Source: Opitutaceae bacterium
Lineage (GTDB): Bacteria > Verrucomicrobiota > Verrucomicrobiia > Opitutales > Opitutaceae
Direction: 5' to 3'
Length of the DNA: 41,662 bases
NCBI GenBank assembly: GCA_947474995.1
Contig: CANJNJ010000031.1
Location: 1-41,662, forward strand
Positions within the stretch are counted from its first letter, which is position 1, and each line of letters begins with the position of its first letter. The notes beneath the pieces were generated by a model. It was not told where the DNA came from. It saw nothing but the letters and a program-made list of their open reading frames with translations, and did not search any database. Made by a program: the position numbers and the translations under genes. Below, one piece after another: positions 6,586 to 41,662 of this stretch.

Positions 6586-6620
6586 AAGTTGAGAGTTGAG
6601 GGCTGAGAGTTGAGAGAGCG
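6586..6620. repeat. heptamer tandem repeat upstream of GldG-like gene
   Basis: Units AAGTTGA, GAGTTGA, GGGCTGA, GAGTTGA, GAGAGCG start 15 bases upstream of the start codon at 6571. It is almost the same sequence and the same distance as the array at 4503-4537. Confidence 0.75.
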
Positions 6621-6630
6621 GAAATCCACC

Positions 6631-6713: not shown

Positions 6714-6720
6714 GGAAAAT

Positions 6721-7443
6721 TCATCGTTCCAAGGCCACGACGTTGAGGAAGAGCGTGAAGGCCATCAGGGAGACGAAGAACATGACGTCCTTCGGATCAA
6801 TGATGCCCTTGGTGAAGGCGTCGAAATGCGTGATGAAGCTGAAATTCGACAGCAGGTCGACGAACCACACCGGGAAGAGGGAATTGAGCACGTTGCTGAA
6901 CACGCTCCAGCCGAGGAACAGGAGCATCAGGCAGGCGACGACGCTCAGGACAAAACTGATTACCTGGTTCTTGGTCACCGACGACATGAGCGAGCACAGG
7001 CCGAGGTAGCCGCCGGCCATCAGGATGGCGCCGCAATAGGTGGTCGCGATGACCCCCCAGTCGGGATGGCCGAGGTAGGCGACGGTGAACGCCATGGGCA
7101 GGCTGAGTAAAATCGCCAGGGAGAGAAACGACCAGGCGGCGAGGAATTTGCCGAGGACGGCGTCGAGCGTCGTGATCGGCAGCGTGAAGAGGAGTTCGAT
7201 CGTGCCAGTGCGCTTTTCCTCGGACCACAGCCGCATGCCGGCCGCGGGGATGAGGAAGAGGAACAACCACGGATAAAACATGAAGTAGCGGTCGAGCGAC
7301 GCCTGGTTGGACTCGAAGAATCCGCCGACGAAAAACGACAGGCCGACGCCGGCGATGGAGAACACCACGAGAAAAACGTACGCGATCGGCGAACGGAAAT
7401 AACCGAGGAACTCGCGTTTGAAGACAGGGGTTATCTGGCGCAT
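6721..7443 (-). CDS. ABC-2 type transporter permease (GldF-like)
   Basis: This 240-residue polytopic protein has about six membrane segments: roughly residues 17-40, 52-72, 99-124, 129-152, 165-190 and 217-238. Between segments 2 and 3 it carries the ABC-2 coupling motif RLWSEEKRTGTIELLFTLP, found in GldF and NosY-type permeases. The ATPase gene lies upstream and the GldG-like gene downstream on the same strand, so the three likely form one export complex. Length and motif fit the family. The substrate cannot be read from sequence. The ATG at 7443 opens directly into the conserved PVFKREFLGYFRSP start, which supports it. Confidence 0.92.
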   Translation of the reverse strand: MRQITPVFKREFLGYFRSPIAYVFLVVFSIAGVGLSFFVGGFFESNQASLDRYFMFYPWLFLFLIPAAGMRLWSEEKRTGTIELLFTLPITTLDAVLGKFLAAWSFLSLAILLSLPMAFTVAYLGHPDWGVIATTYCGAILMAGGYLGLCSLMSSVTKNQVISFVLSVVACLMLLFLGWSVFSNVLNSLFPVWFVDLLSNFSFITHFDAFTKGIIDPKDVMFFVSLMAFTLFLNVVALER

Positions 7444-24204: not shown

Positions 24205-26055
24205 ATGAATTCCGAAGTCCTCTCCGTGCTCATCGCAAAAACGCCGTCCCTTAAGGCGGCCAAAGCCAAGCTTGAGGCGATGGAACCGGGTGCCTACGTG
24301 GTGCACCGGAGCTGGGGTTTCGGCCAAATCAAGAGCTACGACGACGCCGCCCAGCGGCTGATGATCGATTTCAAGAGCAAGAAGGCTCATGCGATGGACC
24401 CGGTTTTCTGCGTCACAACCATGGAGGTGCTGCCCGAAAAGCATCTGCTCGTGCGCAAAGAAGTTGAGCCCAAGAAGATTGCGGAACTTATCGCGGAGAA
24501 TCCCGCCCAGCTCGTGGTCGAGGCTCTGGAGGCTTATCCGAATAACGCGGCGACGGCCATCGAGTTGGAAATCACGCTCGCCCAGGTGGTCGGCGACGAA
24601 AAGTTCAAGAAATGGTGGGCGGCCGCCAAGAAGGCCTTGGCCAAGGATCCCCGGGTCGCGGTGCCGGCCAAGAAGACCGAGTGCTATATCCTGCGCAAGA
24701 CGCCGGTATCGGCGGAGGACGAGATCCTCGAGCAATTTAACTCCACCCGTTCGGCCCGCCGGCGCATCGGCTTGGCTGAGGATCTGATGGGCGCCACGGG
24801 CCGCAAGGATGTGAAGAGCGATTTGTCGGTCGTCCTGAAGGGCGTGACGGACGCCGTGCGCGATTCCAATCAGCTCGATGCCGCCGAACGTCTTTACGGC
24901 GCCGCGGTGCGCGATGATTTGGCCAAGGCGGTGGGGGCCGAAAATAATTTCGAACCCACCCAGGCGACGCTGATCGCGACCGTCCGCGATCTTCCGGCCA
25001 TCGCGGAAAAGATTCCGGTGCACTTCCAGTCCCGCTTCTTGGAACTCATCCAGGAAACGCATCCGATCGAGGCCCGCGATATTCTCTTCAACCTGCTGAA
25101 GACTTCGCAGGGCAAATTCACGACCGAGGTCATCAATTTCCTGGTCGAGCAGGGTCATTCCGACGAACTCGCCGCCACGCTTAATCGCTGGCAGATCGAG
25201 CAGAATCTTCGCGCGCCGGTGCTCCTGTGGATCGTCAAGAACCGCCATTCGAAGAAATTCGCCAAGCTGCTCAACGATCTCATCACGCCGCGGCTGCTCA
25301 GCGCCATTTTCTTCGCCATCGACTACGAGGCGCTGCAGGCCTCGAGCGCCCGGCGCATTCCGCTGGGCGACATCCTGAGCGAGGACCGCGACCTCATTTC
25401 CGATCTGCTCTCGACCGCGGATCCCGAGACGGCCCGCGATCTCGCGAACACGCTGATGCTCAACCAGGGCTTCGAGGAGCTGACGAAGAAGTCGCTGCTC
25501 GCCCGGTTCATTAAAATCTTCCCGAAGATCCAGTCCCTCGTGGCGGCCGACGCCGAGAGCAAGGAAGAGCAATTGCTCGTTTCCCGCGGCAGCTTCGAGC
25601 GCAAGCGCGAGGAGTACGAGACCATCGTGTCCAAGCGGATTCCGGAAAACTCCAAGGCCATCGCCACCGCGCGCGAGCACGGCGATCTCAAGGAGAACTC
25701 CGAATACAAGATGGCCAAACAGGACCAGCAGGTCCTCATGGCGCAGAAAACCAATCTCGAGCGCGATTTGGGCCGCGCGCGCGTCGCCGATTTCAAGGAG
25801 GCTTCGACCGACCAGGCCAGCGCCGGCACGATCGTTCAGGTCAAGAACGTCAAGACGGGCGCGAGCATCGCCTATACGATTCTGGGCGCTTGGGACGGCG
25901 ACCCGGACAACCACATTATCTCGTACAAGACGGCGCTCGGCGCCGCTTTGCTGGGCAAAAAGCCGGGCGACACCGTGACGGTGAAGGCCGGCGGAGCCGA
26001 GGACGACTACACGATCGTTAAGATCAGCCGCTACGCCGACAAGGCCCGGGCCTAA
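24205..26055 (+). CDS. very large GreA/GreB-family transcription elongation factor
   Basis: The C-terminal 160 residues of this 616-residue protein are a GreA-type factor: the coiled-coil tip AREHGDLKENSEYKMAKQDQ keeps the conserved acidic Asp and Glu that enter the RNA polymerase secondary channel. It is followed by the FKBP-like C-terminal domain ending in GKKPGDTVTVKAGGAEDD. Normal GreA is about 158 residues. The first 450 are an extension: AYVVHRSWGFGQIKSYDD near residue 30 looks like a small SH3/CarD-type barrel, and then there are many helices. Chlamydia GreA (about 715 residues) is likewise enlarged, so this is a known superphylum trait. Likely role: rescue of paused RNA polymerase, with an extra contact domain. 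ATG 24205 and an intrinsic terminator downstream bound it as a single-gene unit. Confidence 0.9.
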   Translation: MNSEVLSVLIAKTPSLKAAKAKLEAMEPGAYVVHRSWGFGQIKSYDDAAQRLMIDFKSKKAHAMDPVFCVTTMEVLPEKHLLVRKEVEPKKIAELIAENPAQLVVEALEAYPNNAATAIELEITLAQVVGDEKFKKWWAAAKKALAKDPRVAVPAKKTECYILRKTPVSAEDEILEQFNSTRSARRRIGLAEDLMGATGRKDVKSDLSVVLKGVTDAVRDSNQLDAAERLYGAAVRDDLAKAVGAENNFEPTQATLIATVRDLPAIAEKIPVHFQSRFLELIQETHPIEARDILFNLLKTSQGKFTTEVINFLVEQGHSDELAATLNRWQIEQNLRAPVLLWIVKNRHSKKFAKLLNDLITPRLLSAIFFAIDYEALQASSARRIPLGDILSEDRDLISDLLSTADPETARDLANTLMLNQGFEELTKKSLLARFIKIFPKIQSLVAADAESKEEQLLVSRGSFERKREEYETIVSKRIPENSKAIATAREHGDLKENSEYKMAKQDQQVLMAQKTNLERDLGRARVADFKEASTDQASAGTIVQVKNVKTGASIAYTILGAWDGDPDNHIISYKTALGAALLGKKPGDTVTVKAGGAEDDYTIVKISRYADKARA

Positions 26056-28654: not shown

Positions 28655-28678
28655 GTTTTCGCGCGAGCGAAAACCTAC
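28651..28678. terminator. symmetrical hairpin containing both stop codons of convergent genes
   Basis: GTAGGTTTTCGC-GCGA-GCGAAAACCTAC is a perfect 12-bp stem. The TAG of the plus-strand gene (28652-28654) and the TAG of the minus-strand gene (28675-28677) are both in the outer stem. It probably ends transcription from both sides, although no long T-run follows; a REP-like repeat is the alternative. Confidence 0.6.
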
Positions 28679-29871
28679 ATTTTCTTCACGGCATACGCCA
28701 TCGCGTAGGCGATTTGCTCGAGCTGCCCGTCGGTGTGCTGGGCGGAAATCGCGGTGCGGATGAGATCCTTGCCGGCGGGGACGGCGGGCGCAATCGACAT
28801 GACGGTAAACACACCCTTGTCGAGAAGGGCCTTCCAGAACGGATAAACGCGCTCCTTCGAACCAAGCACGATGGGTACCGCCGGCGTTTCGCTTTCCCAC
28901 GTGTCGAGGCCGAGCGATTTCAACATGGCCCGATATTTCTTGGTGTTGGCCCAAAGCTTCTCGTGGTGCTCCGGCTCCGACTGCATGATCTCGAGCGAGG
29001 CCTTGGCGCAGGCGGCCTGGCTCGGGCTGATCGCCGCGGAGAAAATCGTCTGCTTGGAATGAGTGCGCAGGTATTCGATGACCTCGGTCGAGGCCGCCAC
29101 GAATCCACCGGTGCTGGCGAGGGACTTCGAAAGGCTGCCGCAGAGCACGTCGACTTTGTCGTTGAGCCCGAAATGGTCGACCGTCCCGCGGCCTTGCCGG
29201 CCGAGCACGCCAAAACCGTGGGCGTCGTCGACGACGGTAAAGCAGCCGTGTTCCTCCGCGATTTCCGCGAGCTCGGGCAACCGCGCGATGTGGCCCTCCA
29301 TCGAGTAGACCCCTTCGATGACCATCATCTTTGTCGCATCGGGACTGACCGCCGCCATGACTTCCCGCAAATCGTCGGGGCTGTTGTGCGAAAACCGCTC
29401 CACCGTCGCCATCGACAGCCGGATGCCATCCCAAAGGCACGAATGGATGTTCTTGTCGGCGAGGATGACGTCGCCCTTTTGGGCAAACGAAGCGACGCTC
29501 GACATACACGAAATGTAGCCGGCGACACTGATGTGGCAGGCCTCGCGACCGAGGAATTCCGCGAGTTTCTCCTCGAGTTCGATATGGTAGCCCCGCGACC
29601 CGTTCGACATGCGCGCGCCAGTCGTGCTGGTGCCCCATTTGAGCATGGCCGCCCGACCCGCCTCGATGACCTTGGGATGGAACGAAAGCCCAAGGTAGTC
29701 ATTGCTGGACAGCATGATCATGTCACGCCCATCGAGCTTCACGTTGGTCCCGTTCTGGCGCTCCATCGCGTGATACCAAGGAGCGTATTTCAACCGCATC
29801 TTGGTCGAATAATCATCCCGGCACCGGGCCAGCAGGGCCTTTTTGTTTTTCGTGAAGAAAGATAACGCCAT
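28675..29871 (-). CDS. alpha-oxoamine synthase family enzyme, serine palmitoyltransferase-like
   Basis: This PLP enzyme condenses an amino acid with an acyl-CoA/ACP (family of KBL, BioF, SPT). Motifs: MLSSNDYLGLSFHPKV, then GTSTTGARMSNGSRGYHIEL and NIHSCLWDG (the His that stacks on PLP). VIEGVYSMEG, VVDDAHGFGVLGRQGRG and SLSKSLASTGGF (the PLP lysine) follow. The last pattern, with VIEGVYSMEG, FSAAISPSQ and LLDKGVFTVMSIAP, resembles bacterial serine palmitoyltransferase more than KBL (GTLGKALG) or BioF. If so, it would start sphingolipid synthesis; other members of the family make long-chain aminoketone signals. 398 residues is normal length. It lies downstream of a glycosyltransferase on the same strand, with a 215-base repeat-containing gap. 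Family certain, substrate not. Confidence 0.88.
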   Translation of the reverse strand: MALSFFTKNKKALLARCRDDYSTKMRLKYAPWYHAMERQNGTNVKLDGRDMIMLSSNDYLGLSFHPKVIEAGRAAMLKWGTSTTGARMSNGSRGYHIELEEKLAEFLGREACHISVAGYISCMSSVASFAQKGDVILADKNIHSCLWDGIRLSMATVERFSHNSPDDLREVMAAVSPDATKMMVIEGVYSMEGHIARLPELAEIAEEHGCFTVVDDAHGFGVLGRQGRGTVDHFGLNDKVDVLCGSLSKSLASTGGFVAASTEVIEYLRTHSKQTIFSAAISPSQAACAKASLEIMQSEPEHHEKLWANTKKYRAMLKSLGLDTWESETPAVPIVLGSKERVYPFWKALLDKGVFTVMSIAPAVPAGKDLIRTAISAQHTDGQLEQIAYAMAYAVKKM

Positions 29872-30086: not shown

Positions 30087-31280
30087 TCAGCTCCTACGCC
30101 GTAACGCCTGCATCCACGTCGTCAATTCCGTGGCGTAGTCCGACCAGGTCTTGAAACGCCGGGCGCGCGCCGCCGCGGCGAGGCGTGCGATTTCGCCCGG
30201 TGCTGCGAGCAGGCGCCCGAGGGCGCCCGCGAGGCTGGCGGCATCGACGGTTTCGAGCATCACGCCACCGCCGCCCCGGGCCGATTCGGCGAGCGCCCCG
30301 CGAGCGGAGCAAACACAGGGCTTGCCGTGCCCGAGGCTTTCGATGACGGGCAGGCCGAAACCTTCGCGGATCGACGGATAGACCGTGAGCGTGCAGCCGG
30401 CGTACGCGCTCGCGAGGGCGTCGTCGCTGACCGGCCCATCATAGCGCAGCGGTCGCCCTGCGGCCTGCAAAGCGCGAATCCGCGCGAGCGCCGCCGCCCC
30501 GGTCTGCGCTTGCGCGAGACCGATCAGATGCAGCGTGAACGTGACGCCACGCGACCAGAGTTCCTCCGCGGCCTCGAGCAGCGCGAGGTGGTTTTTCCGG
30601 CCCTCGATGCTGCCCACGGAAAGGATCGTCGGCGGGGATTGTGGCGCGGGATTCTGGGCGGTCGCGGCGGAGGCGGGGAGATCGACCCCTAGGGAGATCG
30701 TCTGGACTGGGGGAGCCGATTTGACCTCGAGCCACTGCCAGTAATCGAGGAGAGCCTGGCGGGAATCCTCGGACACGGCGGCGATGCCGTCGAACGCGAG
30801 CAGCTCGATGAGGTAGGCGGGAAACCGTGCGACCGTACGCGTGGGAGTGAGCTCGGGCAGCTGGAGCGCGATGGCGTCGTGAAACAACGCGACGCGTGGC
30901 CCGCGGGTAAGGGCGAAGAGGGCGGGCAAGGCGCGGGCGATGGCCGGCGAAAAAACCTCGGGCACGACAATGCCGGATGGATGGAGCGCGGAAAGGCGGC
31001 CCGCGGGGTTGGAGCCGCCACCGAAGATGCGTCCCGCGTGGCCGCGAACTTTCGCGCTCAACGGCCAGCTGGCGCCGCGCCGTGCGCCCGCGGCTTCGGC
31101 GTCGAGATTGGCCTGTTCCCAGCGTTCGAGCGCGCGCCAGGTGCCCCGATGGGGGTCGTGTGTGATGGCGACGGCGCCGGCACCCAGGGCGCGATGCAGG
31201 GAGCGGGTGACCCGCTGGATTCCCGTGCGCGCGTGCGTATGGCTCGTGTGCGAGAGATCCAGGAGGAGGGGAGCGGCCAT
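30087..31280 (-). CDS. family 4 glycosyltransferase
   Basis: This 397-residue cytoplasmic GT-B enzyme probably transfers a sugar from a nucleotide donor during surface glycan synthesis. The C-terminal half has the GT4 features ILSVGSIEGRKNHLALLEAA, LRYDGPVSDDALASAYAGCT and TVYPSIREGFGLPVIESLGH (the E-x7-E region), then GKPCVCSARGALAES. The N-terminal half begins LLLDLSHTSHTHARTGIQRV, a start typical of this group, and has FHDAIALQLPELTPT. ATG 31280 is chosen; a longer frame upstream adds a non-coding Arg-rich leader. It is divergent from the membrane protein gene at 31489 and upstream of the SPT-like gene. Confidence 0.9.
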   Translation of the reverse strand: MAAPLLLDLSHTSHTHARTGIQRVTRSLHRALGAGAVAITHDPHRGTWRALERWEQANLDAEAAGARRGASWPLSAKVRGHAGRIFGGGSNPAGRLSALHPSGIVVPEVFSPAIARALPALFALTRGPRVALFHDAIALQLPELTPTRTVARFPAYLIELLAFDGIAAVSEDSRQALLDYWQWLEVKSAPPVQTISLGVDLPASAATAQNPAPQSPPTILSVGSIEGRKNHLALLEAAEELWSRGVTFTLHLIGLAQAQTGAAALARIRALQAAGRPLRYDGPVSDDALASAYAGCTLTVYPSIREGFGLPVIESLGHGKPCVCSARGALAESARGGGGVMLETVDAASLAGALGRLLAAPGEIARLAAAARARRFKTWSDYATELTTWMQALRRRS

Positions 31281-31488: not shown

Positions 31489-33048
31489 ATGAGACAAATG
31501 CTGACATGGTTTTGGACGCGCCGGCTGGGCCTGGCGGGCTGCGCCATGGTCCTGGCTTTCCTCGTGCTCGCGGGCCGATTTTGGCATCCGTATTACGGGT
31601 TCACCAAGTTTCTGCAGATCGACGAAGCGGATGCGCGGGTCGCCATTCCCGAACTGCGCGCGGCTCCGGTTTATTTTTATTCGGGCCAGAACGGCTACGA
31701 CGCATCGGCGTATTCCCAAATCGCCTTCCATCCGGGGCTGGATTCCCCCGACTTGAAAACCGCCGTCGGCAACGTGCCGTACCGGGCGCGACGCATCCTC
31801 GGGAGCGCGCTCGCCTGGCTGGTGGCGGGTGGGAATCCCGATCGGATCGCCAACGCCTACGCCACGCTCAACCTTGCCGTCTGGCTCGGACTGGCCGCCG
31901 TGCTTTGGCGGTTGCTGCCGGTGCGTGACTGGCGGGGCTGGCTGGCGTGGGTGGGCGTGCTTTTTTCGGCGGGCGCGTTGCATGCCGTTCGCCTCGCGTT
32001 GACCGATCTGCTCGGGCTCACGCTGTTCGCCGCCGCGATGCTGGCGCAGGAAAATCGCCGCGAACGACCGGCGCTCGGCCTGCTGGCCCTGGCCGGTTTG
32101 GCGCGGGAGACGGCGCTCGCCGGCGTGGTCGCATTTTGGCGAGGGCCGTGGCTGGCGCCGCGGACCTGGATCGGAAACGCGGTCCGCACGTGGATCGTGA
32201 TCGCGCCGCTTGGCCTGTGGATCGCGTACATTCGCTGGCAGGCCGGCCCGGCGGACCAGGGCTTCGGAAATTTTTCGTGGCCCGGGGCCGGCTTCGTGGA
32301 GAAGTGGTTTTTTGCGCTCGCCGGCTTTCGGCTGGACCCGGCCTACGGCTGGCTCAACGCCGCGACGCTCCTGGCCACGCTCGGATTGACCGTGCAGGCG
32401 GGTTTTCTGGTCAGTCGCCGCCTGTTCAACGACGCGTGGTGGCGGGTGGGTGCGGTGGGTGTGGTGATGATGCTGCTGTTCGGCACGTCGGTGTGGGAGG
32501 GCCATCCCGGCGCCGCCACCCGCGTGTTGCTGCCGATGGGGCTGGCGTTCGCCGTCCTCGCCGTGCGGCAACGCGCCACCTGGCTCTGGTTGGTGGCCGG
32601 AAGTCTCTCGGTCTGGAGCGGTGTGCTGGCGTTGTGGACCGTGCCGCAGGACGCGGCGGAGATCGCGGCCGGCCGGTCCGAACACGGCGCCTACGTCCTT
32701 CGAATCAACGAGGGCTGGTACGGCTGCGAACGCGATCGTCGCAACACGTGGGCCTGGACCGCGAGGGAGGGGCAACTCGTCCTCGACACGTCGCCGCGGG
32801 GCGGTTCCCCGGCTCGTGTGCGCCTGTCCCTGCGTGCCCTCGCCCCGCGCACCGTCGAGATTCGCCACGGCGCCCGGTTGCTTTGGTCCGGCCCGGTCGG
32901 GGTGAATTTGCAGTCGATCGAATTCCCCGTTGAACGCGCGGGTCGGGTTGTCCTGCAGCTCCGTTCGAGCGAAACCCCGGTGCGCGAATCCAGCGCCCCC
33001 GGTGCTCGCGCCTTGGGTTTCGCGGTCTACAACCCGCGCGTCGAATGA
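31489..33048 (+). CDS. polytopic membrane protein with C-terminal extracytoplasmic module (GT-C-like), paralogue of the protein at 37104
   Basis: About 519 residues from ATG 31489 (31465 and 31498 are alternatives). After membrane segment 1 comes YYGFTKFLQIDE, then SGQNGYDASAYSQIAFHP and NVPYRARRILGSAL, an arrangement shared residue by residue with the protein at 37104 (GYDGAYYVQLALYP, NLPYRARRIL). A Tyr-Asp in the first outer loop is reminiscent of GT-C glycosyltransferases. Nine or so membrane segments follow, including LGLLALAGLARETALAGVVA. The last 110 residues form an outer module: GWYGCERDRRNTWAWTAREG, then beta strands ending ALGFAVYNPRVE. The same module ends the proteins at 33485 and 37104. 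The stop codon overlaps the start of the next gene (ATGA), so the trio is coupled. Function: likely glycan or lipid-linked sugar transfer, inferred. Confidence 0.82.
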   Translation: MRQMLTWFWTRRLGLAGCAMVLAFLVLAGRFWHPYYGFTKFLQIDEADARVAIPELRAAPVYFYSGQNGYDASAYSQIAFHPGLDSPDLKTAVGNVPYRARRILGSALAWLVAGGNPDRIANAYATLNLAVWLGLAAVLWRLLPVRDWRGWLAWVGVLFSAGALHAVRLALTDLLGLTLFAAAMLAQENRRERPALGLLALAGLARETALAGVVAFWRGPWLAPRTWIGNAVRTWIVIAPLGLWIAYIRWQAGPADQGFGNFSWPGAGFVEKWFFALAGFRLDPAYGWLNAATLLATLGLTVQAGFLVSRRLFNDAWWRVGAVGVVMMLLFGTSVWEGHPGAATRVLLPMGLAFAVLAVRQRATWLWLVAGSLSVWSGVLALWTVPQDAAEIAAGRSEHGAYVLRINEGWYGCERDRRNTWAWTAREGQLVLDTSPRGGSPARVRLSLRALAPRTVEIRHGARLLWSGPVGVNLQSIEFPVERAGRVVLQLRSSETPVRESSAPGARALGFAVYNPRVE

Positions 33049-33488
33049 GGGTGAGTAATTCAACGTGGCGGGCGGGTGCACTCGGCGTGGTCGCGATCGT
33101 GGCGATCGGGAATGTCATTTTAGCCGTCCACAAAACGCTTCCGCCTCCCGTCGACTCGCCGGTCATCGCCGTCGACCCCGTCACCCGGCAGGAGCGGCGG
33201 CTGGCCAAGCTCCGGCAGTCCCTTGCCGCGCGGGGCGTGGAGGGAGTCGTCGGTTATCTCGGCGACAGCGCGGGCCCGGCGCTCTGGTCCGACCCGGGCC
33301 AGGTGGAAGACTATTACCTCGCCCAATTTGTCCTCGTGCCCCTGGTGCTGGAGGGGAACTCCGAGCGGTCGGAATGGGCCGTGGCGAATCTGCGGACGAC
33401 GGCGGCTTCCGCGCGAGTGGGCCCCGACTGGAAAATCGCGGAGGATTTCGGCGATGGCGTGTTCCTCCTGCGAAAGGCGAAGCCATGA
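33045..33488 (+). CDS. small membrane-anchored protein in coupled trio
   Basis: This 147-residue product has one N-terminal membrane segment (residues 10-30, AGALGVVAIVAIGNVILAV), and the rest is probably outside the cytoplasm. Unknown family. The soluble part contains RQERRLAKLRQSLAARGVEG, VGYLGD, DYYLAQFVLVPLVLEGN and a final GPDWKIAEDFGDGVFLLRKA. The ending resembles the C-terminal soluble part of the GT39-like protein at 35469 (NWTKIGTSNQISFWRLDG), which is a weak similarity judged by eye. It overlaps both neighbours by ATGA junctions (33045-33048 and 33485-33488), so the three proteins are probably made in fixed proportion. Possible accessory subunit of the two membrane proteins. Confidence 0.8.
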   Translation: MRVSNSTWRAGALGVVAIVAIGNVILAVHKTLPPPVDSPVIAVDPVTRQERRLAKLRQSLAARGVEGVVGYLGDSAGPALWSDPGQVEDYYLAQFVLVPLVLEGNSERSEWAVANLRTTAASARVGPDWKIAEDFGDGVFLLRKAKP

Positions 33489-35356
33489 CGTTCGCGGCCG
33501 TCCTGGCCTTGGGTTCTGCCTGGCTCATGGGCGTGCTCCTCGTGAGCCTGCTGTGGCCCGGCCCGCGGAGGTGGCGGGCGGACCTTGGCTTCATTCTGCC
33601 CCTGGGGTTGGGGCTTGGCCTGGGTGTCACGTCGGCGATTTTTTTCGCGGCGTCGCTCGCTTCGTCGCAACCGGTGAGGCTGTCCTTGATCCTGGAATTT
33701 TCGATCGCGGCGGGGCTGGCGTGGCTCGTGGGCCGGCGTTCTCGACTGGCCACGGGGACGGGCAAGGCCGGGACGCCGGGCCATTCGTGGCTGGTTGCAT
33801 TCGGAGCGACGGCGTTGGGGCAGGCCGCGTTGGTGGCGGCGGTCACGAGCTGGCGGGCCTACGTCGCCGAACCGCACGGGGGTTGGGATGGCTGGGCGAT
33901 TTGGAACATGCACGCGCGGTTTATTTTTCGCGGCGGCGAGAATTGGACGCGACTGCTGCAGCAACCCCCGGTCGCGTGGACCCACGCCGATTATCCTTTG
34001 CTGATCCCGGCGAGTGTGGCGCGGGGCTGGGCTTTCGTCGGCCAGGATGGGGCGTTTGTTTCCGGACTGCTTTCCGGTTCGTTTGGGCTGGCCACGGTCG
34101 GACTGCTCGTCGCCGCCGTCGGGCGACTCCGGCAGCCGTTGGTCGGAATTGTCGGCGGGCTCGTGCTGCTGGGCACACCGTTCTTCGTGACGTTCGCGTC
34201 CAACGAGCACGCCGACATTCCCCTGGGATTTTTCCTGCTCGCGACGGTCGTCCTGATGGCGCTGGGCCAACGGCAGCCGGAGGTCCGCGGTTTCCCGGTG
34301 CTGGCCGGTCTTTGCGCCGGCCTCGCCGCGTGGACCAAGAACGAAGGGCTCCTCTTCGCTCTGCTGGCGGCGGGAGTGTTCATGGCGCAGGCGGCCCGCC
34401 GCGGCGCGCGACGAGCGTCCGGGGCGTTTATCCTTGGACTGGTCGTCGCGTTGGTGCCCGTGGCCATTTTTAAAATCTTCGTCGCCCCGCACAACGACAT
34501 CGTCTCGGCCGGAATCGGCGGGCGGCTGGCCCAACTCGTCGACGGGTCCCGCCACCGTCTGATCCTCGCTTCACTGGTTCGCGACGTGACCCGCTTTGGC
34601 GAGTGGAGCGTGCTCCCTTTTTTCGCGATGATTCCGCCGCTCGTGGTGCCGGGTGGAAAGCGCCTGGGTCGCGGCGAATGGTGGGTGGCGGGCCTCCTCG
34701 CGCTGACCGGCGCCGGCTACTACGCCGTCTATTTGATCACGCCGTGGGATCTCGCCTGGCATCTCGATTCGTCGCTCGTCCGGCTGTTGCTGCAGCTCTG
34801 GCCGGCCGCGGTGTTCTTCTGGTGTCTGGCGATTTCCCAAGATGAAGAGGTGTCCGCCGCGCGACGGCGGCCGCGATGGTTCCTGCCCTGGTTCGGCGTC
34901 GCCAATCTCGGCTTGGGCGCAGTCGTGCTGACCGTGCTTGCGCGTCAACCGGCGCCAAATCAGCTCGCGGTGGCGCGAGTTTCGGGTGGGGAAGTCAGCC
35001 TGCTGACGGGGGACGGTTGGTTCGGTCGCGAGCGCGATCGCCGCGCTGAGTGGATGTGGAGCAAGGGCGAATCTGTCCTTTTCGTGCGCAGCGCGGCGGC
35101 GCAGCCGGTCGCGTTGACGCTGCGATTTAGAATCCGCGGTTTGGGCGCGCGCACCGTGCGAGCCTTCGTGGGCGCTGGCGTCGTCTGGCAGGGTGCCGTC
35201 GGCGAGGCCCTGGTGCCGACGGAAATCGCGGGCGTCGTGTGGCCGCCGGGAGTGACCGCCGTGGTCTTCAAGACCGACGCACCGGGTTTGCCCGAGTCAG
35301 GCTCGCCCAACGCGCGCGCGTTGACGTTTGCGCTTTACGATCCGCGGTTGGAATAG
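33485..35356 (+). CDS. GT-C type membrane glycosyltransferase with same C-terminal module
   Basis: The 623-residue protein has about ten or more membrane segments. Its first large outer loop reads GGWDGWAIWNMHARFIFRGG, with the Asp-x-Trp arrangement of PMT/GT39-like enzymes, followed by THADYPLLIPASVARGWAFV, NEHADIPLGFFLLATVVLMA and GLCAGLAAWTKNEGLLFALL, which fit the GT39/GT-C family. The C-terminal module is the same as in the proteins at 31489 and 37104 (GWFGRERDRRAEWMWSKGES, ending ALTFALYDPRLE), although the membrane part is not a close relative of theirs. The start is at ATG 33485, overlapping the stop of the previous gene. Downstream is a 20-bp inverted repeat between convergent genes. 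Confidence 0.85.
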   Translation: MTFAAVLALGSAWLMGVLLVSLLWPGPRRWRADLGFILPLGLGLGLGVTSAIFFAASLASSQPVRLSLILEFSIAAGLAWLVGRRSRLATGTGKAGTPGHSWLVAFGATALGQAALVAAVTSWRAYVAEPHGGWDGWAIWNMHARFIFRGGENWTRLLQQPPVAWTHADYPLLIPASVARGWAFVGQDGAFVSGLLSGSFGLATVGLLVAAVGRLRQPLVGIVGGLVLLGTPFFVTFASNEHADIPLGFFLLATVVLMALGQRQPEVRGFPVLAGLCAGLAAWTKNEGLLFALLAAGVFMAQAARRGARRASGAFILGLVVALVPVAIFKIFVAPHNDIVSAGIGGRLAQLVDGSRHRLILASLVRDVTRFGEWSVLPFFAMIPPLVVPGGKRLGRGEWWVAGLLALTGAGYYAVYLITPWDLAWHLDSSLVRLLLQLWPAAVFFWCLAISQDEEVSAARRRPRWFLPWFGVANLGLGAVVLTVLARQPAPNQLAVARVSGGEVSLLTGDGWFGRERDRRAEWMWSKGESVLFVRSAAAQPVALTLRFRIRGLGARTVRAFVGAGVVWQGAVGEALVPTEIAGVVWPPGVTAVVFKTDAPGLPESGSPNARALTFALYDPRLE

Positions 35357-35371
35357 CCGGCGGTTGAATTT

Positions 35372-35418
35372 AGAAGCCAGGAAGCCACGAGGAATTGGCT
35401 CGTGGCTTCCTGGCTTCT
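35372..35418. repeat. 20-bp perfect inverted repeat between convergent genes
   Basis: AGAAGCCAGGAAGCCACGAG (35372-35391) and its exact reverse complement (35399-35418) surround a 7-base loop; the AATT bases beyond extend the match with one mismatch. It lies between two convergent genes and could act as a two-way terminator, but has no T-run of note. Confidence 0.75.
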
Positions 35419-35468
35419 GAATTGTTCCGAGGCATTGGGGAGTCGACCGCGCGGAAAATAATGTGGCC

Positions 35469-36995
35469 TCATTTCGCGCTCGTGGCGTTGAGCCCGTCGA
35501 GACGCCAAAACGAAATCTGGTTCGACGTGCCAATCTTCGTCCAATTTCCCGGACAGCGTTCCCGCAGGGCGCCTTGTTCCTCCATGCCGAAAATGACCGC
35601 GCAGACGGGCCGGCCGGACGTTTGCGCCAGCGCGGCGTAGCGTGCAAACTGGGCCGCCTCGATTTGGTCCCAGCGCAGGACGGCGAAGTCGGTGTAGTGG
35701 TAAATCGCCCCACTGAGATAAAAACAGGTGACGAGGGCGTTCGCCGGCAATTGGCCGCGCGCGGCCACGCAGGCCTTCGCATAGGCTTCCTCGTAGCCTT
35801 TGGTGTAGAGCACGCCCAATTTCTTCGTCCAATAACACGAGCCACCCACCGCCCAGAGCCCAAGAATCACGGCGGCGATCGCCCGCCAACGCTGGGCGCG
35901 TTGGATCGCGAAGGAACGCACCACGGCGTCGGCTCCGAGCAGTCCCGCGAGGATCAACGCCGGGATCCCGGGTAGAATGAAGCGCAGGCACCACCACGCT
36001 TCGCGCGACACTTCGTAGCAGGCGTAGAGTCCGACCACGGCCGCGAACCAAAGTCCGAGCGCGAGGAGACCGCGCGTGCGGAAATCACGGCGCACGGTGG
36101 CGGCCAGGGCCAGCGCGACGAGCACGCCCGGCAACAGCAGCGGCAGCCAGTGCGCAAAATGGGCCAGGGTCGGCGGGGCATACGACCAACTGAAGGCGGC
36201 CTGCCAGTCGCCGTAGCCCGATCGCATCGGGCCGCCGTAAAGTTCCCGATTGTAGAGCGCCACCCACACCGCACCGGGCAGACCCGCAAGCGTGGCCAGC
36301 CCGAGCCGCCGCCAGTCGAGTCCGAGCAGCACAACGAGCGCCGGCAGCATGACCAGATTCGTCGGCCGGACCAAAACCGCGACGGCGGTGGCCGCGCCGC
36401 AGGCCGCGGCCCAACCGGAGTGCCGGCGCGCTCGCAACGCCGTGTAGAAGGTGGCGAGCGCCCATGCCGTGGCCAGCGTATCGCTCAACGGCTGAATCGA
36501 CGTGAACAGGAACACGGGGCACGCCCCGAGCGCGCTGGCCCCCGCCGCGGCGAGCCACGGGTCGAGCCCGAGTTCGCGGGCCGTGGCGTAACAGAGCCAC
36601 AAGGCTCCGAGGGCCCCGGCGAGCCCGACCACGAGCGGACCGATTTCCCAGCCGAGAATCTTTCCGGCGAGAGCGTAGTGCAGCGGCAGGCCGGGCGGGT
36701 ACGTCGGTGGTAAATGGGGATTGCCGGGTTGGGGAAAGAATCCGTGCGGCGTGAAATGGGCGCGGTTCAGCTCCATTTGCGGTCCAAACTCGGGTGGCGT
36801 CCGCAATGCGGTCTGCCAGTGGCCCGCGGCGAGCAGGCGCCCGCTGTTCAGGTACCCGGAGGAATCGGATCCCGCAGCGGCCACCGATGTGTTCCGCGCC
36901 AGAAAGAGGGCGAAGGCGGCGAGGGCCAGGACGCCCAACCAGACGAACCAGCGGGGCGCACGCGCAACCGGTTCAAGGGGATTGGGATTTGACAT
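35469..36995 (-). CDS. GT39/ArnT-like membrane glycosyltransferase
   Basis: 508 residues from ATG 36995 (a frame from 37049 adds an unlikely leader). After the first membrane segment (VWLGVLALAAFALFLARN) come AAAGSDSSGYLNSGRLLAAG and ELNRAHFTPHG. Then there is HLPPTYPPGLPLHYAL, the usual pattern of PMT/ArnT-type enzymes, where the outer-loop Asp is catalytic. Later segments include LSDTLATAWALATFYTALRA and CGAATAVAVLVRPTNLVMLP. The last 90 residues are soluble (FAVLRWDQIEAAQFARYAAL to the end) and may face outward. These enzymes use polyprenyl-phosphate sugars. It is divergent from the gene at 37104 and convergent with the one at 33485. Confidence 0.88.
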   Translation of the reverse strand: MSNPNPLEPVARAPRWFVWLGVLALAAFALFLARNTSVAAAGSDSSGYLNSGRLLAAGHWQTALRTPPEFGPQMELNRAHFTPHGFFPQPGNPHLPPTYPPGLPLHYALAGKILGWEIGPLVVGLAGALGALWLCYATARELGLDPWLAAAGASALGACPVFLFTSIQPLSDTLATAWALATFYTALRARRHSGWAAACGAATAVAVLVRPTNLVMLPALVVLLGLDWRRLGLATLAGLPGAVWVALYNRELYGGPMRSGYGDWQAAFSWSYAPPTLAHFAHWLPLLLPGVLVALALAATVRRDFRTRGLLALGLWFAAVVGLYACYEVSREAWWCLRFILPGIPALILAGLLGADAVVRSFAIQRAQRWRAIAAVILGLWAVGGSCYWTKKLGVLYTKGYEEAYAKACVAARGQLPANALVTCFYLSGAIYHYTDFAVLRWDQIEAAQFARYAALAQTSGRPVCAVIFGMEEQGALRERCPGNWTKIGTSNQISFWRLDGLNATSAK

Positions 36996-37103
36996 GGGTG
37001 GCTTGCGTTCTGTGATTCGCAAACTGGCCGTGACATTTTTTGAAGACAAGCACCCGCAGTGTCACGATCTGACCAAGGGCGGTAGCCGTGCGGCTGGCGG
37101 CGG

Positions 37104-38738
37104 ATGAGTTCGTCCTCCACAGACACCCCGGCCCGGCCGGTTCCGCCTCGCTTCGCCCACTGGCGCTGGCGCGGGGCGCTCGTGGCCTGTGCCCTGCTTT
37201 TTGGCTGGGCGGTGGCGCAATTTTACGAGCCGCCGTACGGGTTCACCAGTTTGATTTCAATCGGCGACATGCTGAACTCGACGAAGGTGACGGCCCTGCG
37301 GCAGGTCCCGCACTACGTTTATGAGAAGTCGGCGGGCTATGATGGGGCTTATTACGTCCAGCTCGCGCTGTACCCGACGCTCGACAATCCCGAGCTGAAA
37401 AAGGCGATCGACAATCTTCCCTACCGCGCGCGGCGGATCCTGTTTTGCTGGGTGGAGTGGCTGCTCGGATTGGGGCAGCCGGCGTGGATCGTCCAGGCGC
37501 ACGCGTTGCTCAACGTGCTGTGCTGGTTCGCGCTCGCCGTGGTGTTGTTGCGGTGGTTTCCGCCGACGGACGGGGCGAATTTCCTGCGGTGGTTCGGCGT
37601 GATGTTTTCGCACGGGCTGTGCATGAGCGTGCGGCATTCGCTCGTCGACGGACCCAGTCTGTTGCTCGTGGCGGTGGCGATCGCGCTGGGGGAAAAAGGC
37701 CGCCGGGGGCCGGGCACCGCGGTGCTGGCACTGGCCGGGCTCGGTCGGGAGACGAGCCTGCTCGCGGTGGTGGGTTTCGCGCCGACGGATCCGCACGTGA
37801 GTTCCGCCCCGGTGTGGCGGCGGCCCCAAGCCTGGATCCGATTAGCGGTCACCGCGGTGGTCATCGCGCTGCCGCTGCTGGCGTGGACGGCCGCTCTCTT
37901 CTGGAAGCTTGGCCCGGCCGACGATCCGGCGGGCGTGGGCAACTTCGGCCTGCCGCTCGCGGGGCTGGCGGAAAAATGGGGCACGGTGGTGGCGGGTTCT
38001 TCGGCCTCCGGCCACTCGCCGCTCGATTGGGCCACGCTGGCCGTCACGCTCGCGTTGACGGTCCAGTGGTTGTTCTTCGTTCTCCGGTGGCGGCCGGCCG
38101 AAACCTGGTGGCGGGTGGGGGCGGCCTTTGCCGGGCTGATGATTTTTTTGTCGACGCCGGTTTGGGAGGGATTTCCCGGCGCTGGGACCCGCGTGCTTTT
38201 GCCGATGACGCTGGCGTTCAACCTGGTCGTTCCGCGCGGACGCCGCTGGCTGCCTGTGTTGCTGGCCGGCAACCTCACGGTCTTGGCGGCCTGGTTCGAA
38301 TTCAATCCGCCGCCGCGTGATTTCGTCCACGTGGTGGGCGAGGGCGGCGCCAATGTCGCAGTGCAAATTGGGCCCGCGACCGGTTGGTCCGGCTCGGAGA
38401 ATCACGACAAGGACCGCTGGCGCTGGAGTTCGGGCGAAGCGACGCTCCGCATCCGGAACGACGCTGGCACCCCGGTGATGCTGGTCGTGCAGGGGCGGAT
38501 CGCCGCGGTGGACAATCGCCACGTGCGGGCCTTCGCGGGTGAGGCGATGGTGTGGTCGGGCGCCGTCGGCGAAAAGCCCGCCAATCTCCAGTTCGGGTGC
38601 GTCGTGCCCGCCGGCGAATCCACCCTTCGTTTCTCCAGCGATCGCCCGGGTCGGCGCGTCGGGCAGGATCCGCGGCTGCTGGCCTTCAGTGTCTACAACT
38701 TGGAGATCGTCGTGCGCCCGGCGCCCGTGCGACGCTAA
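37104..38738 (+). CDS. GT-C-like polytopic membrane protein, paralogue of the protein at 31489
   Basis: 544 residues; ATG 37104 leads through a Pro/Arg-rich tail into the first membrane segment (LVACALLFGWAVAQFYEP). Conserved with the protein at 31489: YGFT, SAGYDGAYYVQLALYPTLDN, NLPYRARRILF, LALAGLGRETSLLAVVGF and ETWWRVGAAFAGLMIFLSTP followed by VWEGFPGAGTRVLLPMTLAF. The C-terminal module (GWSGSENHDKDRWRWSSGEA ... LLAFSVYNLEIV) is the same outer domain. About nine membrane segments. A methyltransferase gene follows after 4 bases, so the two are co-transcribed. Its role in glycan synthesis is inferred from neighbours. Confidence 0.84.
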   Translation: MSSSSTDTPARPVPPRFAHWRWRGALVACALLFGWAVAQFYEPPYGFTSLISIGDMLNSTKVTALRQVPHYVYEKSAGYDGAYYVQLALYPTLDNPELKKAIDNLPYRARRILFCWVEWLLGLGQPAWIVQAHALLNVLCWFALAVVLLRWFPPTDGANFLRWFGVMFSHGLCMSVRHSLVDGPSLLLVAVAIALGEKGRRGPGTAVLALAGLGRETSLLAVVGFAPTDPHVSSAPVWRRPQAWIRLAVTAVVIALPLLAWTAALFWKLGPADDPAGVGNFGLPLAGLAEKWGTVVAGSSASGHSPLDWATLAVTLALTVQWLFFVLRWRPAETWWRVGAAFAGLMIFLSTPVWEGFPGAGTRVLLPMTLAFNLVVPRGRRWLPVLLAGNLTVLAAWFEFNPPPRDFVHVVGEGGANVAVQIGPATGWSGSENHDKDRWRWSSGEATLRIRNDAGTPVMLVVQGRIAAVDNRHVRAFAGEAMVWSGAVGEKPANLQFGCVVPAGESTLRFSSDRPGRRVGQDPRLLAFSVYNLEIVVRPAPVRR

Positions 38739-38742
38739 CGGC

Positions 38743-39696
38743 ATGAGTTTCGGCCTCCGGGATTTTCTGCGCTGGTTTCCGGCGTTCACGCGGCTGGAAA
38801 AGGCGAACGCCCGGCTGGCCGCGGAGCTGGCGCAGCGCACGGCAGAGTTGGAATCGCTGCGAGCCGAGTGGATGCGATTCTTTCCGCCCGGGCATTTCTA
38901 TTCTCCCTTGCCTTCGCAGGCTGAGATCGCCGAGGCGTTTGCCCGCGGTGGGTTTGGACCGCCGTTTCCCGCCATCGACCTCAACGAGGCCGGGCAGTTT
39001 GCGCGGCTGGAAAAATTCGCCGAATTTTACGCGAGCCAGCCCTTCCCCGAGCAGCCGACTCCCGGTCGGCGTTTCTATTTGGATAATCCCTCCTATGGGC
39101 ACTACGACGCGATCATGCTCTACGGGATGCTGCGCGAGGCGAAACCGCGGCGGATCATTGAGGTGGGTTCCGGTTTCAGCTCCGCGGCGATGCTCGACCT
39201 CAACGAGCACGTCTTGGGCGGCGGGGTGGAATTCACCTTTATTGACCCGGACATGACGCGCCTGCGGCCGCTGTTGCGCGAGGGCGACACGAAGCGGGCG
39301 CAATTGATCGAGAAGCGTGTGCAAGAGGTGCCGCTCGCAACGTTCGCGGGCCTGGCGGAAAATGACGTGCTGTTCATCGACTCCTCGCACGTCAGCAAGA
39401 TCGGGAGCGACGTGAACCGGTTATTCTTTGACGTGCTGCCGGTGCTCGCGCCGGGCGTGCTCATTCACATTCACGATGTCGCGGGCAACCTCGAGTATCC
39501 CCGCGACTGGCTGGAAGGCGGCCGGGCGTGGAACGAGCAATATTTGCTGCACGCGTTCTTAATGTACAACCCCGCGTTTCGAATCGAATTGTTCTCGGCG
39601 TGGCTCTGGAACGCGAAGCACGAGTACATTCGCACCCATTTGCCAATGTGCGCGCGCGGCGGTGGTGGCCAGGTCTGGCTGCGGAAATTAAAGTAG
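38743..39696 (+). CDS. class I SAM-dependent methyltransferase (Methyltransf_24 type)
   Basis: This 317-residue cytoplasmic enzyme has an N-terminal coiled-coil-like helix (FTRLEKANARLAAELAQRTA), the motif PPGHFYSPLPSQAEIAEAF, and YLDNPSYGHYDAIMLYGMLR. The SAM fold follows: IIEVGSGFSSAAMLDLNEHV (motif I), VEFTFIDPDMTRLRPLLREG and DVLFIDSSHVSKIGSDVNRL. A conserved LIHIHDVAGNLEYP closes the core. Family members often sit in polysaccharide gene clusters and methylate sugars or lipid-linked glycans; this fits the neighbourhood. ATG 38743 is 4 bases after the stop of the preceding membrane protein. The final KHEYIRTHLPMCARGGGGQV is a family-like ending. Confidence 0.88.
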   Translation: MSFGLRDFLRWFPAFTRLEKANARLAAELAQRTAELESLRAEWMRFFPPGHFYSPLPSQAEIAEAFARGGFGPPFPAIDLNEAGQFARLEKFAEFYASQPFPEQPTPGRRFYLDNPSYGHYDAIMLYGMLREAKPRRIIEVGSGFSSAAMLDLNEHVLGGGVEFTFIDPDMTRLRPLLREGDTKRAQLIEKRVQEVPLATFAGLAENDVLFIDSSHVSKIGSDVNRLFFDVLPVLAPGVLIHIHDVAGNLEYPRDWLEGGRAWNEQYLLHAFLMYNPAFRIELFSAWLWNAKHEYIRTHLPMCARGGGGQVWLRKLK

Positions 39697-39849: not shown

Positions 39850-41493
39850 TCAAAACCCCGCGATGTGCTCGAGCCGCCGCCGGTATCGCGCGCCGATGAC
39901 GGCCGGGGAAAACCGCGCCTCGATCGTGGCGCGGGCCGCCGCACCGAGGTGGGAGCCCAGCGGGCGGTCCGCGAAAAGCCGGCGCATGTGTTCCGCGGCG
40001 TGGACCGGATCCGCCTCGGCCCACGTGGAGCCCTTGGCGTACGGCCCGTGGCTCTGTTCCAGCGTCGCCAGGCGCGCACGCACGGGGCAGCCATTCGTGT
40101 CGTCGACAAATTCCGCCGTCGCCGACCAGTCCGTCGTGATGACGGGTTTGCCGAGGTACATGCACTCCGCCACCGCGAGCCCGAAGCCTTCCGAGCGGTG
40201 GAGGGAGACGAAGCAATCGCAGGCGGCTTCCAGCGCGTAGATCTCGGCCCGGGCCAGGGTCGCGGTGAGGAGCACGGTGCCGGGCAAATCGCGGATTTCC
40301 GCCTGGAGCGCGGCGAAGTCGGCTTCGTTGCCGGCCACGTTCTGGACCTTCAGCACGAGGGCGGCACCCTGGCCGGCGAGGCCCGAGCAGCGAAACGCGT
40401 CGATGACGGCGCGCGGGTTCTTCCGGGCCGCGTAGGAATTGAAATCGAACAGCGTGAGAAAAAGATACGGATCCGGCGGCAGTCCGAGGCGGGCGCGGAG
40501 GATGGCCGGAGTTTCGGCCGGTCGCGCGAAGGCGATGGCGTGGGGCATCGTCAGCACCGGCAGGGGTGACTTCAACGCGAGCGCCGCGGTCGTGAAATCG
40601 CTGGGACACCAGACTTCGTCGTAGTAGTCGAACGCCGAGACCCAGGCCTCGGGAAATTCCGGCAGCTCCCACGCAAAGTAGGCGATGTTGTACTTGCCGG
40701 CGCGAAAACCCGGACCGTGGTGGTGGTCAAGGTCGCGCGAAGCCGGCGGATCGACGTGGACGACATTGACGTCGTGCGGATTGTCCGCCTGCAGTCGCGT
40801 GGTGAAGGTTTGGTCGCCGAGTCGGTTCTTGCAGTTGAGCTTGAGGGGCACGAGCGCCGTGGGAATCTCCGCGGCATCGGCGGCGCGAGCCATGCAGCGG
40901 GCGGATTCGCCGATGCCCAGGTCAGCGGTGAAGAAGCCGGCGATATTGAGCCCGAGCTTCGCATGCCGGCGAGCGTAGTCGGAGGAGTAGGGTGCGTCCC
41001 GGCGTGAGAAATCGAAAATAGTTTCCCCATCGGGCAGCGTGATGGTGGTCACCCGCAACTGGCGGTTCTTGTTTTGCGCCCGGAACCGCTGCCACCAGCC
41101 CAGCCCCGTCACGCGGCCGAGGAATGCGAGAAAATTGGTCAGCCCGACCCCTCCGAGTGCGACCGTGAGCGTGGCCGACTCGCTGGCGGGAAGGGTCACC
41201 CGCAGTTCCCACGGGCCGGGCTGCGGCGGCGTGATCGTGCCGGCCGACTGGCCGTTGACGAAAAAATGGAGCGCGGGGGCGGCCTGTTCGATGCCGCGGG
41301 CCGCGGGATGCGGTCGAAATTCGCCCCGCACGATGACCTCGCGCACCGGTCCCAGCGGGGGCAGTCGCACGGTGGCCCTTTCGCGAATCCACGCCGAGGC
41401 CGGCTCGAACTCGTCGAAGAAGAGTCCCGCGTACGAAACGAAGCGGCGGGAAAAGGCGCCACCTGACGGCGGCGTGCGGGAAACAGAAGACAT
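39850..41493 (-). CDS. family 4 glycosyltransferase with N-terminal beta-rich domain
   Basis: The ATG at 41493 gives 547 residues. The first 150 are a beta-rich domain (YAGLFFDEFEPASAWIRERA, ALHFFVNGQSAGTITPPQPG, LPASESATLTVALGG) not found in a minimal GT4. The GT-B part starts near residue 180 (LGLNIAGFFTADLGIGESAR) and has ILRARLGLPPDPYLFLTLFD, LFDFNSYAARKNPRAVIDAF and AACDCFVSLHRSEGFGLAVA (the E-x-G-F-G motif). It continues with ECMYLGKPVITTDWSATAEF, which fits nucleotide-sugar-dependent transferases. Longer frames to about 41650 run into the heptamer repeat and are artefacts, so 41493 is used. The downstream part to the stop at 39850 is complete. Confidence 0.92.
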   Translation of the reverse strand: MSSVSRTPPSGGAFSRRFVSYAGLFFDEFEPASAWIRERATVRLPPLGPVREVIVRGEFRPHPAARGIEQAAPALHFFVNGQSAGTITPPQPGPWELRVTLPASESATLTVALGGVGLTNFLAFLGRVTGLGWWQRFRAQNKNRQLRVTTITLPDGETIFDFSRRDAPYSSDYARRHAKLGLNIAGFFTADLGIGESARCMARAADAAEIPTALVPLKLNCKNRLGDQTFTTRLQADNPHDVNVVHVDPPASRDLDHHHGPGFRAGKYNIAYFAWELPEFPEAWVSAFDYYDEVWCPSDFTTAALALKSPLPVLTMPHAIAFARPAETPAILRARLGLPPDPYLFLTLFDFNSYAARKNPRAVIDAFRCSGLAGQGAALVLKVQNVAGNEADFAALQAEIRDLPGTVLLTATLARAEIYALEAACDCFVSLHRSEGFGLAVAECMYLGKPVITTDWSATAEFVDDTNGCPVRARLATLEQSHGPYAKGSTWAEADPVHAAEHMRRLFADRPLGSHLGAAARATIEARFSPAVIGARYRRRLEHIAGF

Positions 41494-41566
41494 GACGGCG
41501 GTGGGAGGGAAAGGCTCGCGGCGGAGGTTGGCAAAACTTTCCTCGGATGGCGGTGGCGGCGGCGGC

Positions 41567-41662
41567 GGACCACGGACCACGGACCACGGACCACGGACCA
41601 CGGACCACGGACCACGGACCACGGACCACGGACCACGGACCACGGACCACGGACCACGGACC
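41567..41662. repeat. GGACCAC heptamer tandem repeat, runs off right edge
   Basis: Thirteen perfect GGACCAC units plus five bases fill 41567-41662 without a mismatch. It starts 74 bases upstream of the glycosyltransferase start codon at 41493 and continues past the window. Because 7 is not a multiple of 3, every frame is open and gives false long open frames. Confidence 0.97.

Follow-up and report, generated by a model that had tools for sequence, protein, structure and literature searches.

Introduction

The combination of a glycosyltransferase of the GT-C type with a C-terminal carbohydrate-binding module (CBM) is already known. In the mycobacterial arabinosyltransferase EmbC, a GT-C membrane part is followed by a C-terminal jelly-roll module, and substitutions of conserved tryptophans in this CBM are reported to have inhibited extension of lipoarabinomannan and impaired acceptor binding (PMC3044687). 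Likewise, the GT136 enzyme ORF12 of Citrobacter youngae O1 is described as a GT-C enzyme ending in a beta-rich domain that bears the label CBM; the enzyme adds its sugar on the extracytoplasmic side from a polyprenyl-phosphate donor within a multi-component system, and its authors urge caution over the placement of the CBM (PMC11127046). Here we analyze a stretch of 41,662 nucleotides from an Opitutaceae bacterium (contig CANJNJ010000031.1 of assembly GCA_947474995.1, positions 1 to 41,662), hereafter the window, in which three membrane proteins, A, B and C, end in one shared module of ~130 residues that we call the tail. An original prediction, made from the sequence alone, had proposed these proteins as a candidate undescribed glycan-assembly system.

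The predicted structure of A aligns with EmbC over both the membrane part and the tail. However, A and C share no sequence similarity with EmbC that a 43-sequence profile against the PDB or a Pfam search could detect, the proteins in the window are about half its length, and their tail is common to several scaffolds. As far as its published description allows comparison, ORF12 differs in belonging to a pentofuranose system and in being a single enzyme rather than one of a tail-sharing set (PMC11127046). Because EmbC and ORF12 both join a GT-C enzyme to a CBM, the tailed proteins are better seen as a new family or variant than as an undescribed kind of system, and the original prediction, though correct in outline, needs revising on this point. 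What is new here is not the architecture, but the reuse and movement of one module across a set of proteins.

A and C also resemble the NCBIfam model NF046093, ‘AZOBR_p60025 family cell surface glycopolymer formation protein’, of whose 232 positions A spans 4-230 and C 8-227. Neither A (110.4 bits, E 7.5e-32) nor C (123.4 bits) reaches its cut-off of 150, the model covers no tail, and among the 20 loci examined out of 32 matches, 9 carried a tail and 11 did not. Literature searches found no paper on AZOBR_p60025 or on DUF7024, the Pfam domain to which we relate the tail below, and did not find the tail family described.

Results

Three membrane proteins end in the same module

The coordinates and tail motifs given for the three proteins in the original prediction were correct on re-checking (Table 1). 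A and C are, as it had proposed, paralogues along their full length, identical at 38% of 520 aligned positions (E 1e-91). The membrane part of B is different: it is GT39-like and passes the Pfam model PMT_2 (PF13231; 35.7 bits against a cut-off of 26.1). Significant similarity of B to the other two is confined to the end of the protein (with A, 168 positions, E 3e-19; with C, 145 positions, E 6e-19). Local alignment of the last 130 residues gave scores of 186 (A-B), 109 (A-C) and 194 (B-C), whereas 1000 shuffles of each pair reached no more than 55, 59 and 58, respectively; together with 22 invariant columns in the alignment of the three tails, this rules out a chance likeness. A fourth copy of the tail is encoded in the same genome on another contig (C245), in a protein of a further scaffold type, S2.

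None of the three window tails matched Pfam at E ≤ 10. In an alignment of 57 tails, from which 11 of 68 rows had been excluded (ten S1-type and one fragment), residues E34, W41, W43 and R129 are invariant in all 57 rows, and W30, E34, W41 and W43 sit on two consecutive predicted strands (30-36 and 39-44).

The tail is predicted to be a CBM-like beta sandwich

An AlphaFold2 model of the tail of B, built with 57 relatives, is all-beta and confident (pLDDT 95.6). Its fold matches in Foldseek and VIA-align are mostly CBMs (CBM35, CBM6, CBM36, CBM29, CBM22 and CBM4) and include the sugar-binding part of cellulose synthase subunit B; the top VIA-align rows are the CBM35 structures 2w3j and 2w87 (Z 9.0) and the CBM6 structure 2cdp (Z 8.9). 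The predicted fold is that of a CBM-type beta sandwich, or jelly roll, with Z up to 9.0-9.2, and other jelly rolls match it too. Sequence searches of the PDB returned nothing significant: one gave no match at all and another a GH2 sugar-binding chain at E 0.44. Structure prediction did not yield three unrelated tails, an outcome that the original prediction had named as fatal to its claim: the tails of A and B, modelled separately, both match CBM-type jelly rolls, and that of C is joined to them by sequence. Like a CBM, the tail is a discrete and portable module, found on several membrane scaffolds and, in distantly related form, on GH42-like and pectate-lyase-like proteins. The models thus predict a CBM-like domain of sugar-binding appearance.

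The tail is a remote relative of DUF7024

Aligned to a small DUF7024 set with hhalign, the tail profile gave a probability of 88% (E 3.1e-6, score 40.6), compared with scores of at most 18.6 in 100 column shuffles and of 13.3 for the reversed profile. The motif layout of DUF7024 is that of the tail, with G..E....RW near the start and D-R-L-G near the end. Residues 616-759 of E. coli OpgB are a DUF7024 domain; with OpgB added to the set, the hhalign probability falls to 71%, the control for this set contained two unexplained shuffle scores of 134, and we rely on the set without OpgB. Searched directly, the DUF7024 model (PF22895) missed all three window tails at E ≤ 10; of the 57 tails it reported only one, at E 0.018, short of the family cut-off.

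Distant matches of the tail provided intermediate profiles. These matches are attached to a GH42-like protein (L090, with relatives L091 and L092), to a pectate-lyase-like protein (L094, with one relative) and to further proteins that match no Pfam family. The profile of the GH42-attached domains retrieves DUF7024 domains at E 1.5e-4 as well as GT-C tails, the best of these at E 2.5e-6; for the profile of the family-less group the corresponding values are 7e-7 and 4e-6. The pectate-lyase profile finds the GH42-attached domains (3e-14), but GT-C tails only at E 0.005, all of these E-values being relative to a small set of open reading frames (ORFs). The hhalign result and the two intermediate profiles place the tail, by sequence comparison, as a remote relative of DUF7024 within one domain superfamily that includes the end of OpgB. 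With this relationship and the CBM-like predicted fold, the statement that the module could be matched to no family no longer holds.

Several further proteins carry these domains. In another genome of the family (G028), a PMT_2 protein ends in a C-terminal DUF7024, and one protein (L065, genome G088) has two DUF7024 domains in tandem. An ABC-transporter ATPase with a Wzt_C domain (L089:7493-9349, + strand, genome G166) has an extra terminal domain whose sequence lies near that of DUF7024 (E 2.6e-12), with only a distant likeness to the tails (15.4 bits); its gene lies beside one encoding three tandem tails, described below. Given the GH42-like, pectate-lyase-like and Wzt_C carriers, the superfamily is associated with proteins resembling makers, cutters, modifiers and exporters of glycans.

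The membrane parts resemble GT-C enzymes

AlphaFold2 modelled the whole of A confidently (pLDDT 94.0, pTM 0.91; 43 sequences). In VIA-align, residues ~2-391 match yeast oligosaccharyltransferase 7oci (Z 17.8), ArnT 5f15 (16.8), ALG12 (15.7), PglB (14.5) and PimE (14.4), at a root-mean-square deviation (rmsd) of 4.7-5.4 over 286-308 aligned positions. With the tail included, residues 12-519 align with EmbC 7bvh (Z 12.7, rmsd 11.0 Å). The GT-C nature claimed for the proteins is supported by this multi-helix fold in A and by PMT_2 in B. Pfam contains Emb families, and A and C matched nothing in Pfam at E ≤ 1; the best PDB match of a 43-sequence A/C-type profile was an unrelated ribosomal protein (E 0.6), with no Emb chain, so that these searches do not place A and C in the Emb/Aft families.

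Residues Y70-D71 of A are present in all 43 aligned A/C-type sequences, between helix 1 (2-29) and a long helix at 117-142. The proposed catalytic aspartate of several solved GT-C enzymes is likewise described as located after the first membrane helix (PMC11127046). D71 is a candidate for the catalytic residue, in what would be the first outer loop. The ArnT match stops at residue 387 of A and residue 456 of ArnT, close to where we take the periplasmic C-terminal domain of ArnT to start; the tail would therefore lie outside. By likeness to ArnT and EmbC, it is plausible that the tail is extracytoplasmic and that it serves one common substrate.

One tail is carried by at least four scaffold groups and seems to have moved between scaffolds

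In a first survey, the tail was C-terminal in 76 tailed proteins, with at most 38 residues beyond it. A second survey sorted 101 non-redundant tailed proteins by their N-terminal parts into 48 of A/C type, 18 of S2, 15 of S1, 5 of B and small groups; judged from these sequences, at least four scaffold groups carry the tail in Opitutaceae, bearing out the idea of one module on different scaffolds. From their size and hydrophobicity, S1 and S2 may be GT-C enzymes as well.

A tree was made of the tails of 87 of the 101 proteins, and a bootstrap tree of 72, without S1. The latter contains a single group (support 100/97) made up of 19 tails from A/C scaffolds (that of A included), all 5 B tails and one fused tail, with the tail of C outside it. 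A constraint uniting all tails of A/C scaffolds was rejected (AU p 0.00015). On both grounds, tails seem to have crossed between scaffolds.

The fused tail illustrates how such a crossing may occur. In genome G002, a whole GT39-like protein (L048:6831-8855, - strand), a relative of the tailless GT39-like protein in the window (GT39m), is fused to a tail; the GT39-like protein is tailless in the other 14 of 15 stretches. The fused tail is nearest to the tails of A-type neighbors in relatives (42-45% identity), and the single NF046093 match of G002 is C-type. The simplest reading is that a deletion took the catalytic part of an A-type gene and spared its tail. In G166, an S1-type membrane protein (L089:3430-6321, + strand) ends in three tandem tails. 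Conversely, tailless paralogues of the same family stop just past the last membrane helix, and tailed and tailless A/C-type proteins coexist in G171.

Tailed proteins are encoded in a conserved Opitutaceae locus

A clustering of neighboring genes included some clusters of antisense ORFs, and a locus survey was made to avoid them. It covers 37 stretches of at least 9 kb, chosen for tails or their kin, and is informative for the other genes, not for the tails. The recurrent order, with losses, is serine-palmitoyltransferase-like, GT4a, A-type with tail, GT39-like, C-type with tail, methyltransferase, GT4N, S1 with tail, S2 with tail, GT2a and GT2b. GT4N is present in 20 of the stretches, GT4a and GT2a in 18 each, and the serine-palmitoyltransferase-like gene in 13. 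This conserved locus agrees with the glycan-assembly context that had been proposed. Tail sharing among three genes stands, but their number understated its extent: 11 of the 37 stretches encode three or four tailed proteins, and the conserved locus has up to four.

The A-type and B genes occur as a pair without the remainder of the locus in three stretches (L034-L036), and A in the window is oriented opposite to the A-type genes that occupy this position in L037 or L038. The pair therefore seems to be an addition to the conserved locus here, or a substitute for part of it.

The locus also offers a possible source of donor. GT2a resembles ArnC and PgfS, which are polyprenyl-phosphate sugar transferases, at scores below the model cut-offs (3 of the 18 copies scanned), and has two C-terminal hydrophobic segments. 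The genome of the window has its own GT2a copy (80% identical) near the start of contig C59. The first gene of C59, an NAD epimerase, shares a stretch with a gene at the end of contig C245, on which the S2-type tailed protein is encoded; judging by this overlap, the GT2a copy probably sits just past the fourth tailed gene. The one GtrA flippase gene of the genome is on a contig (C98) other than that of the window, so the locus does not display a full three-component set of the kind that the pentofuranose system (PMC11127046) brought into consideration.

A profile of the three tails matched in all 27 genomes of the genus (own included), in 5 of 10 genomes from other genera of the family and in none of 20 other genomes of the order. 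A deeper profile matched 26 of 194 genomes of the phylum, 15 of 19 within the family and 11 of 175 outside it, the latter more weakly (E 3e-10 to 8e-5); at most 21 candidates were scored per genome, so absences in this survey are soft. Among the best 80 of 176 relatives retrieved with the 43-sequence A/C-type alignment, the 76 best loci are labelled Opitutae, Opitutia, Opitutaceae, Opitutus, Lacunisphaera, Verrucomicrobia or Verrucomicrobiota, apart from a single one labelled Acidobacteria. Plasmid records searched with C gave no match at E 1e-3.

Gene map of the window

Features of the locus are collected in Table 1. The gene for the 147-residue protein overlaps both A and B by 4 bp (ATGA), and to judge from these overlaps the three genes look translationally coupled. 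The protein matched no family in Pfam or NCBIfam, and its relatives accompany the A-type and B pair in four stretches, the window counted. GT39m had no Pfam match. The N-terminal ~165 residues of GT4N are conserved and contain no named domain; 13 further long stretches encode relatives of this region, as do truncated ORFs elsewhere. Considered as an extra copy of the tail, this region was unsupported (hhalign probability 4.3%; 8.0 bits). The serine-palmitoyltransferase-like gene at the edge of the locus raises a possible sphingolipid connection to the glycan.

Table 1. Positions of the tailed proteins, their tails and recurrent neighbors in the window.
Feature	Positions	Strand	Basis
Serine-palmitoyltransferase/BioF-like PLP enzyme; recurrent neighbor, locus edge	28675..29871	-	NF047600 E 3.5e-115, below cut-off
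GT4a, GT4 glycosyltransferase; recurrent neighbor	30087..31280	-	PF00534 72.7 bits
A, predicted GT-C-fold membrane protein with C-terminal tail; AZOBR_p60025-like, ‘AC2’ type	31489..33048	+	NF046093, AlphaFold2
Tail of A, from residue 392; predicted CBM-like beta sandwich	32662..33048	+	Tail alignment, AlphaFold2, fold comparison
147-residue protein, one N-terminal hydrophobic segment	33045..33488	+	Relatives between A-type and B-type genes, L034-L036
B, PMT_2 (GT39-like) membrane protein with C-terminal tail	33485..35356	+	PF13231 35.7 bits
Tail of B	34955..35356	+	AlphaFold2 pLDDT 95.6, all-beta, CBM-like fold
GT39m, GT39-like membrane protein without tail; start provisional	35469..37049	-	NF047440 E 8.7e-7, below cut-off
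C, full-length paralogue of A, with tail; ‘AC’ type	37104..38738	+	NF046093 123.4 bits, below cut-off
Tail of C	38316..38738	+	Tail alignment (sequence)
Methyltransferase (Methyltransf_24); recurrent neighbor, start provisional	38611..39696	+	PF13578 46.2 bits
GT4N, GT4 glycosyltransferase with its own conserved N-terminal region; recurrent neighbor	39850..41490	-	PF00534 47.6 bits

Elsewhere in the window, positions 24205-26055 (+) encode a GreA-type transcription factor fused to an N-terminal part of ~450 residues (NF011309, E 3e-86, below cut-off), and positions 4676-7443 (-) hold GldG-like and GldF-like ABC transporter genes (TIGR03521 and TIGR03518, both below cut-off), of a kind usually named for gliding motility. 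The contig ends at 41566-41662 in 13.9 copies of a 7-bp tandem repeat, CGGACCA, which may have caused the assembly to break here.

Discussion

Taking the modelled fold together with the analogy to EmbC, we consider it probable that the tail is an extracytoplasmic module that binds the acceptor glycan and is common to GT-C enzymes building one surface glycan. According to this model, the epimerase and GT2a would supply the donor, a polyprenyl-phosphate sugar, and A, B and C would transfer its sugar to the growing surface glycan at the outer face of the inner membrane. The tail, which follows the last membrane helix and would face the catalytic side, would hold the common acceptor as is reported for the CBM of EmbC and as ORF12 is depicted. 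Enzymes that differ in their catalytic parts, and so perhaps in the sugar or linkage that they add, could then act on one polymer. That enzymes with different catalytic parts share one tail is best explained by a single common acceptor, and the ArnC-like synthase in the locus is circumstantial evidence for transfer of polyprenyl-phosphate sugars. Tentatively, we would extend this model to regard the tail as a glycan-reading ‘address tag’ on the GT-C battery of one locus, which an enzyme can capture from its neighbor as appears to have happened in G002.

Several observations weigh against the acceptor-binding model. Foldseek ranks a phage lambda tail fibre first for the tail of B; insecticidal Cry, reelin, MAM and binary-toxin domains appear in the same match lists, and Z scores of 8-9 barely exceed the level of models without a clear relative. 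Because non-CBM jelly rolls share these lists, the fold alone does not prove sugar binding. The 11 divergent tails excluded from the alignment visibly lack part of the motif, and the GH42-like relatives have ~100 residues C-terminal to the domain, so it is not always terminal. For the membrane parts, the GT-C fold prediction covers A, and Foldseek on the whole of A is weak: EmbB comes first (E 1.4e-4, TM 0.19-0.32), and the rows after it, at E 6e-4, are unrelated; since this search alone is weak, the GT-C assignment of A rests on VIA-align. The S1 and S2 scaffolds (two members of each scanned) matched no family in Pfam or NCBIfam, simple hydropathy gave no decision on the membrane side of the tail, and a search for S1 in this genome, run with no positive control, did not find it.

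The tail might instead be a docking domain, uniting the GT-C enzymes through a common protein partner with no role in sugar binding. Jelly-roll domains serve protein contacts too, adjacent genes encode as many as four tailed proteins, and the single-helix 147-residue protein travels with the A and B pair in four stretches. This explanation nonetheless seems unlikely to us: only the tailed families recur in all 37 stretches, as far as families can be recognized by similarity, and distant relatives of the tail occur on proteins of glycan-degrading appearance, GH42-like and pectate-lyase-like, where such a complex would be unexpected.

We rate as decidedly unlikely a structural role, in which the tail would be a lid or packing domain of the GT-C core, comparable to the periplasmic C-terminal domain of ArnT or AftB, with no binding site of its own. 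The tail does follow directly on the last membrane helix and is confidently placed against the core in the model of A (pTM 0.91), its invariant tryptophans, glutamate and arginine may be structural, and AftB is described as having a C-terminal periplasmic domain of other make-up (PMC12041299). However, a lid of this kind fits poorly with tailless paralogues, attachment to different scaffolds, tandem copies and the fusion onto a whole GT39-like protein in G002. Finally, it is scarcely credible that the membrane parts are not glycosyltransferases at all (but ligases or transporters, say, whose helix bundle resembles that of GT-C enzymes, the tail binding cargo): A and C pass no family cut-off and no activity of any member was found in the literature covered, against which stand the GT-C structural matches, PMT_2 in B, the invariant aspartate after helix 1 and the ArnC-like synthase in the locus.

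Acceptor binding by a shared tail would matter in several respects. The same module recurs on at least four scaffold groups, for the most part within one conserved locus, whereas GT-C enzymes with acceptor modules are otherwise known singly. The tailless paralogues, which are natural knock-outs, together with the fusion and the triple copy, make acceptor choice by extracytoplasmic glycosyltransferases testable through removal or exchange of the tail. The locus points to a surface glycan of Opitutaceae for which we found no description in the literature searched (Opitutaceae and glycosyltransferase). More broadly, these results suggest a role for a superfamily of domains, the end of E. coli OpgB among them, whose function is given in Pfam as unknown.

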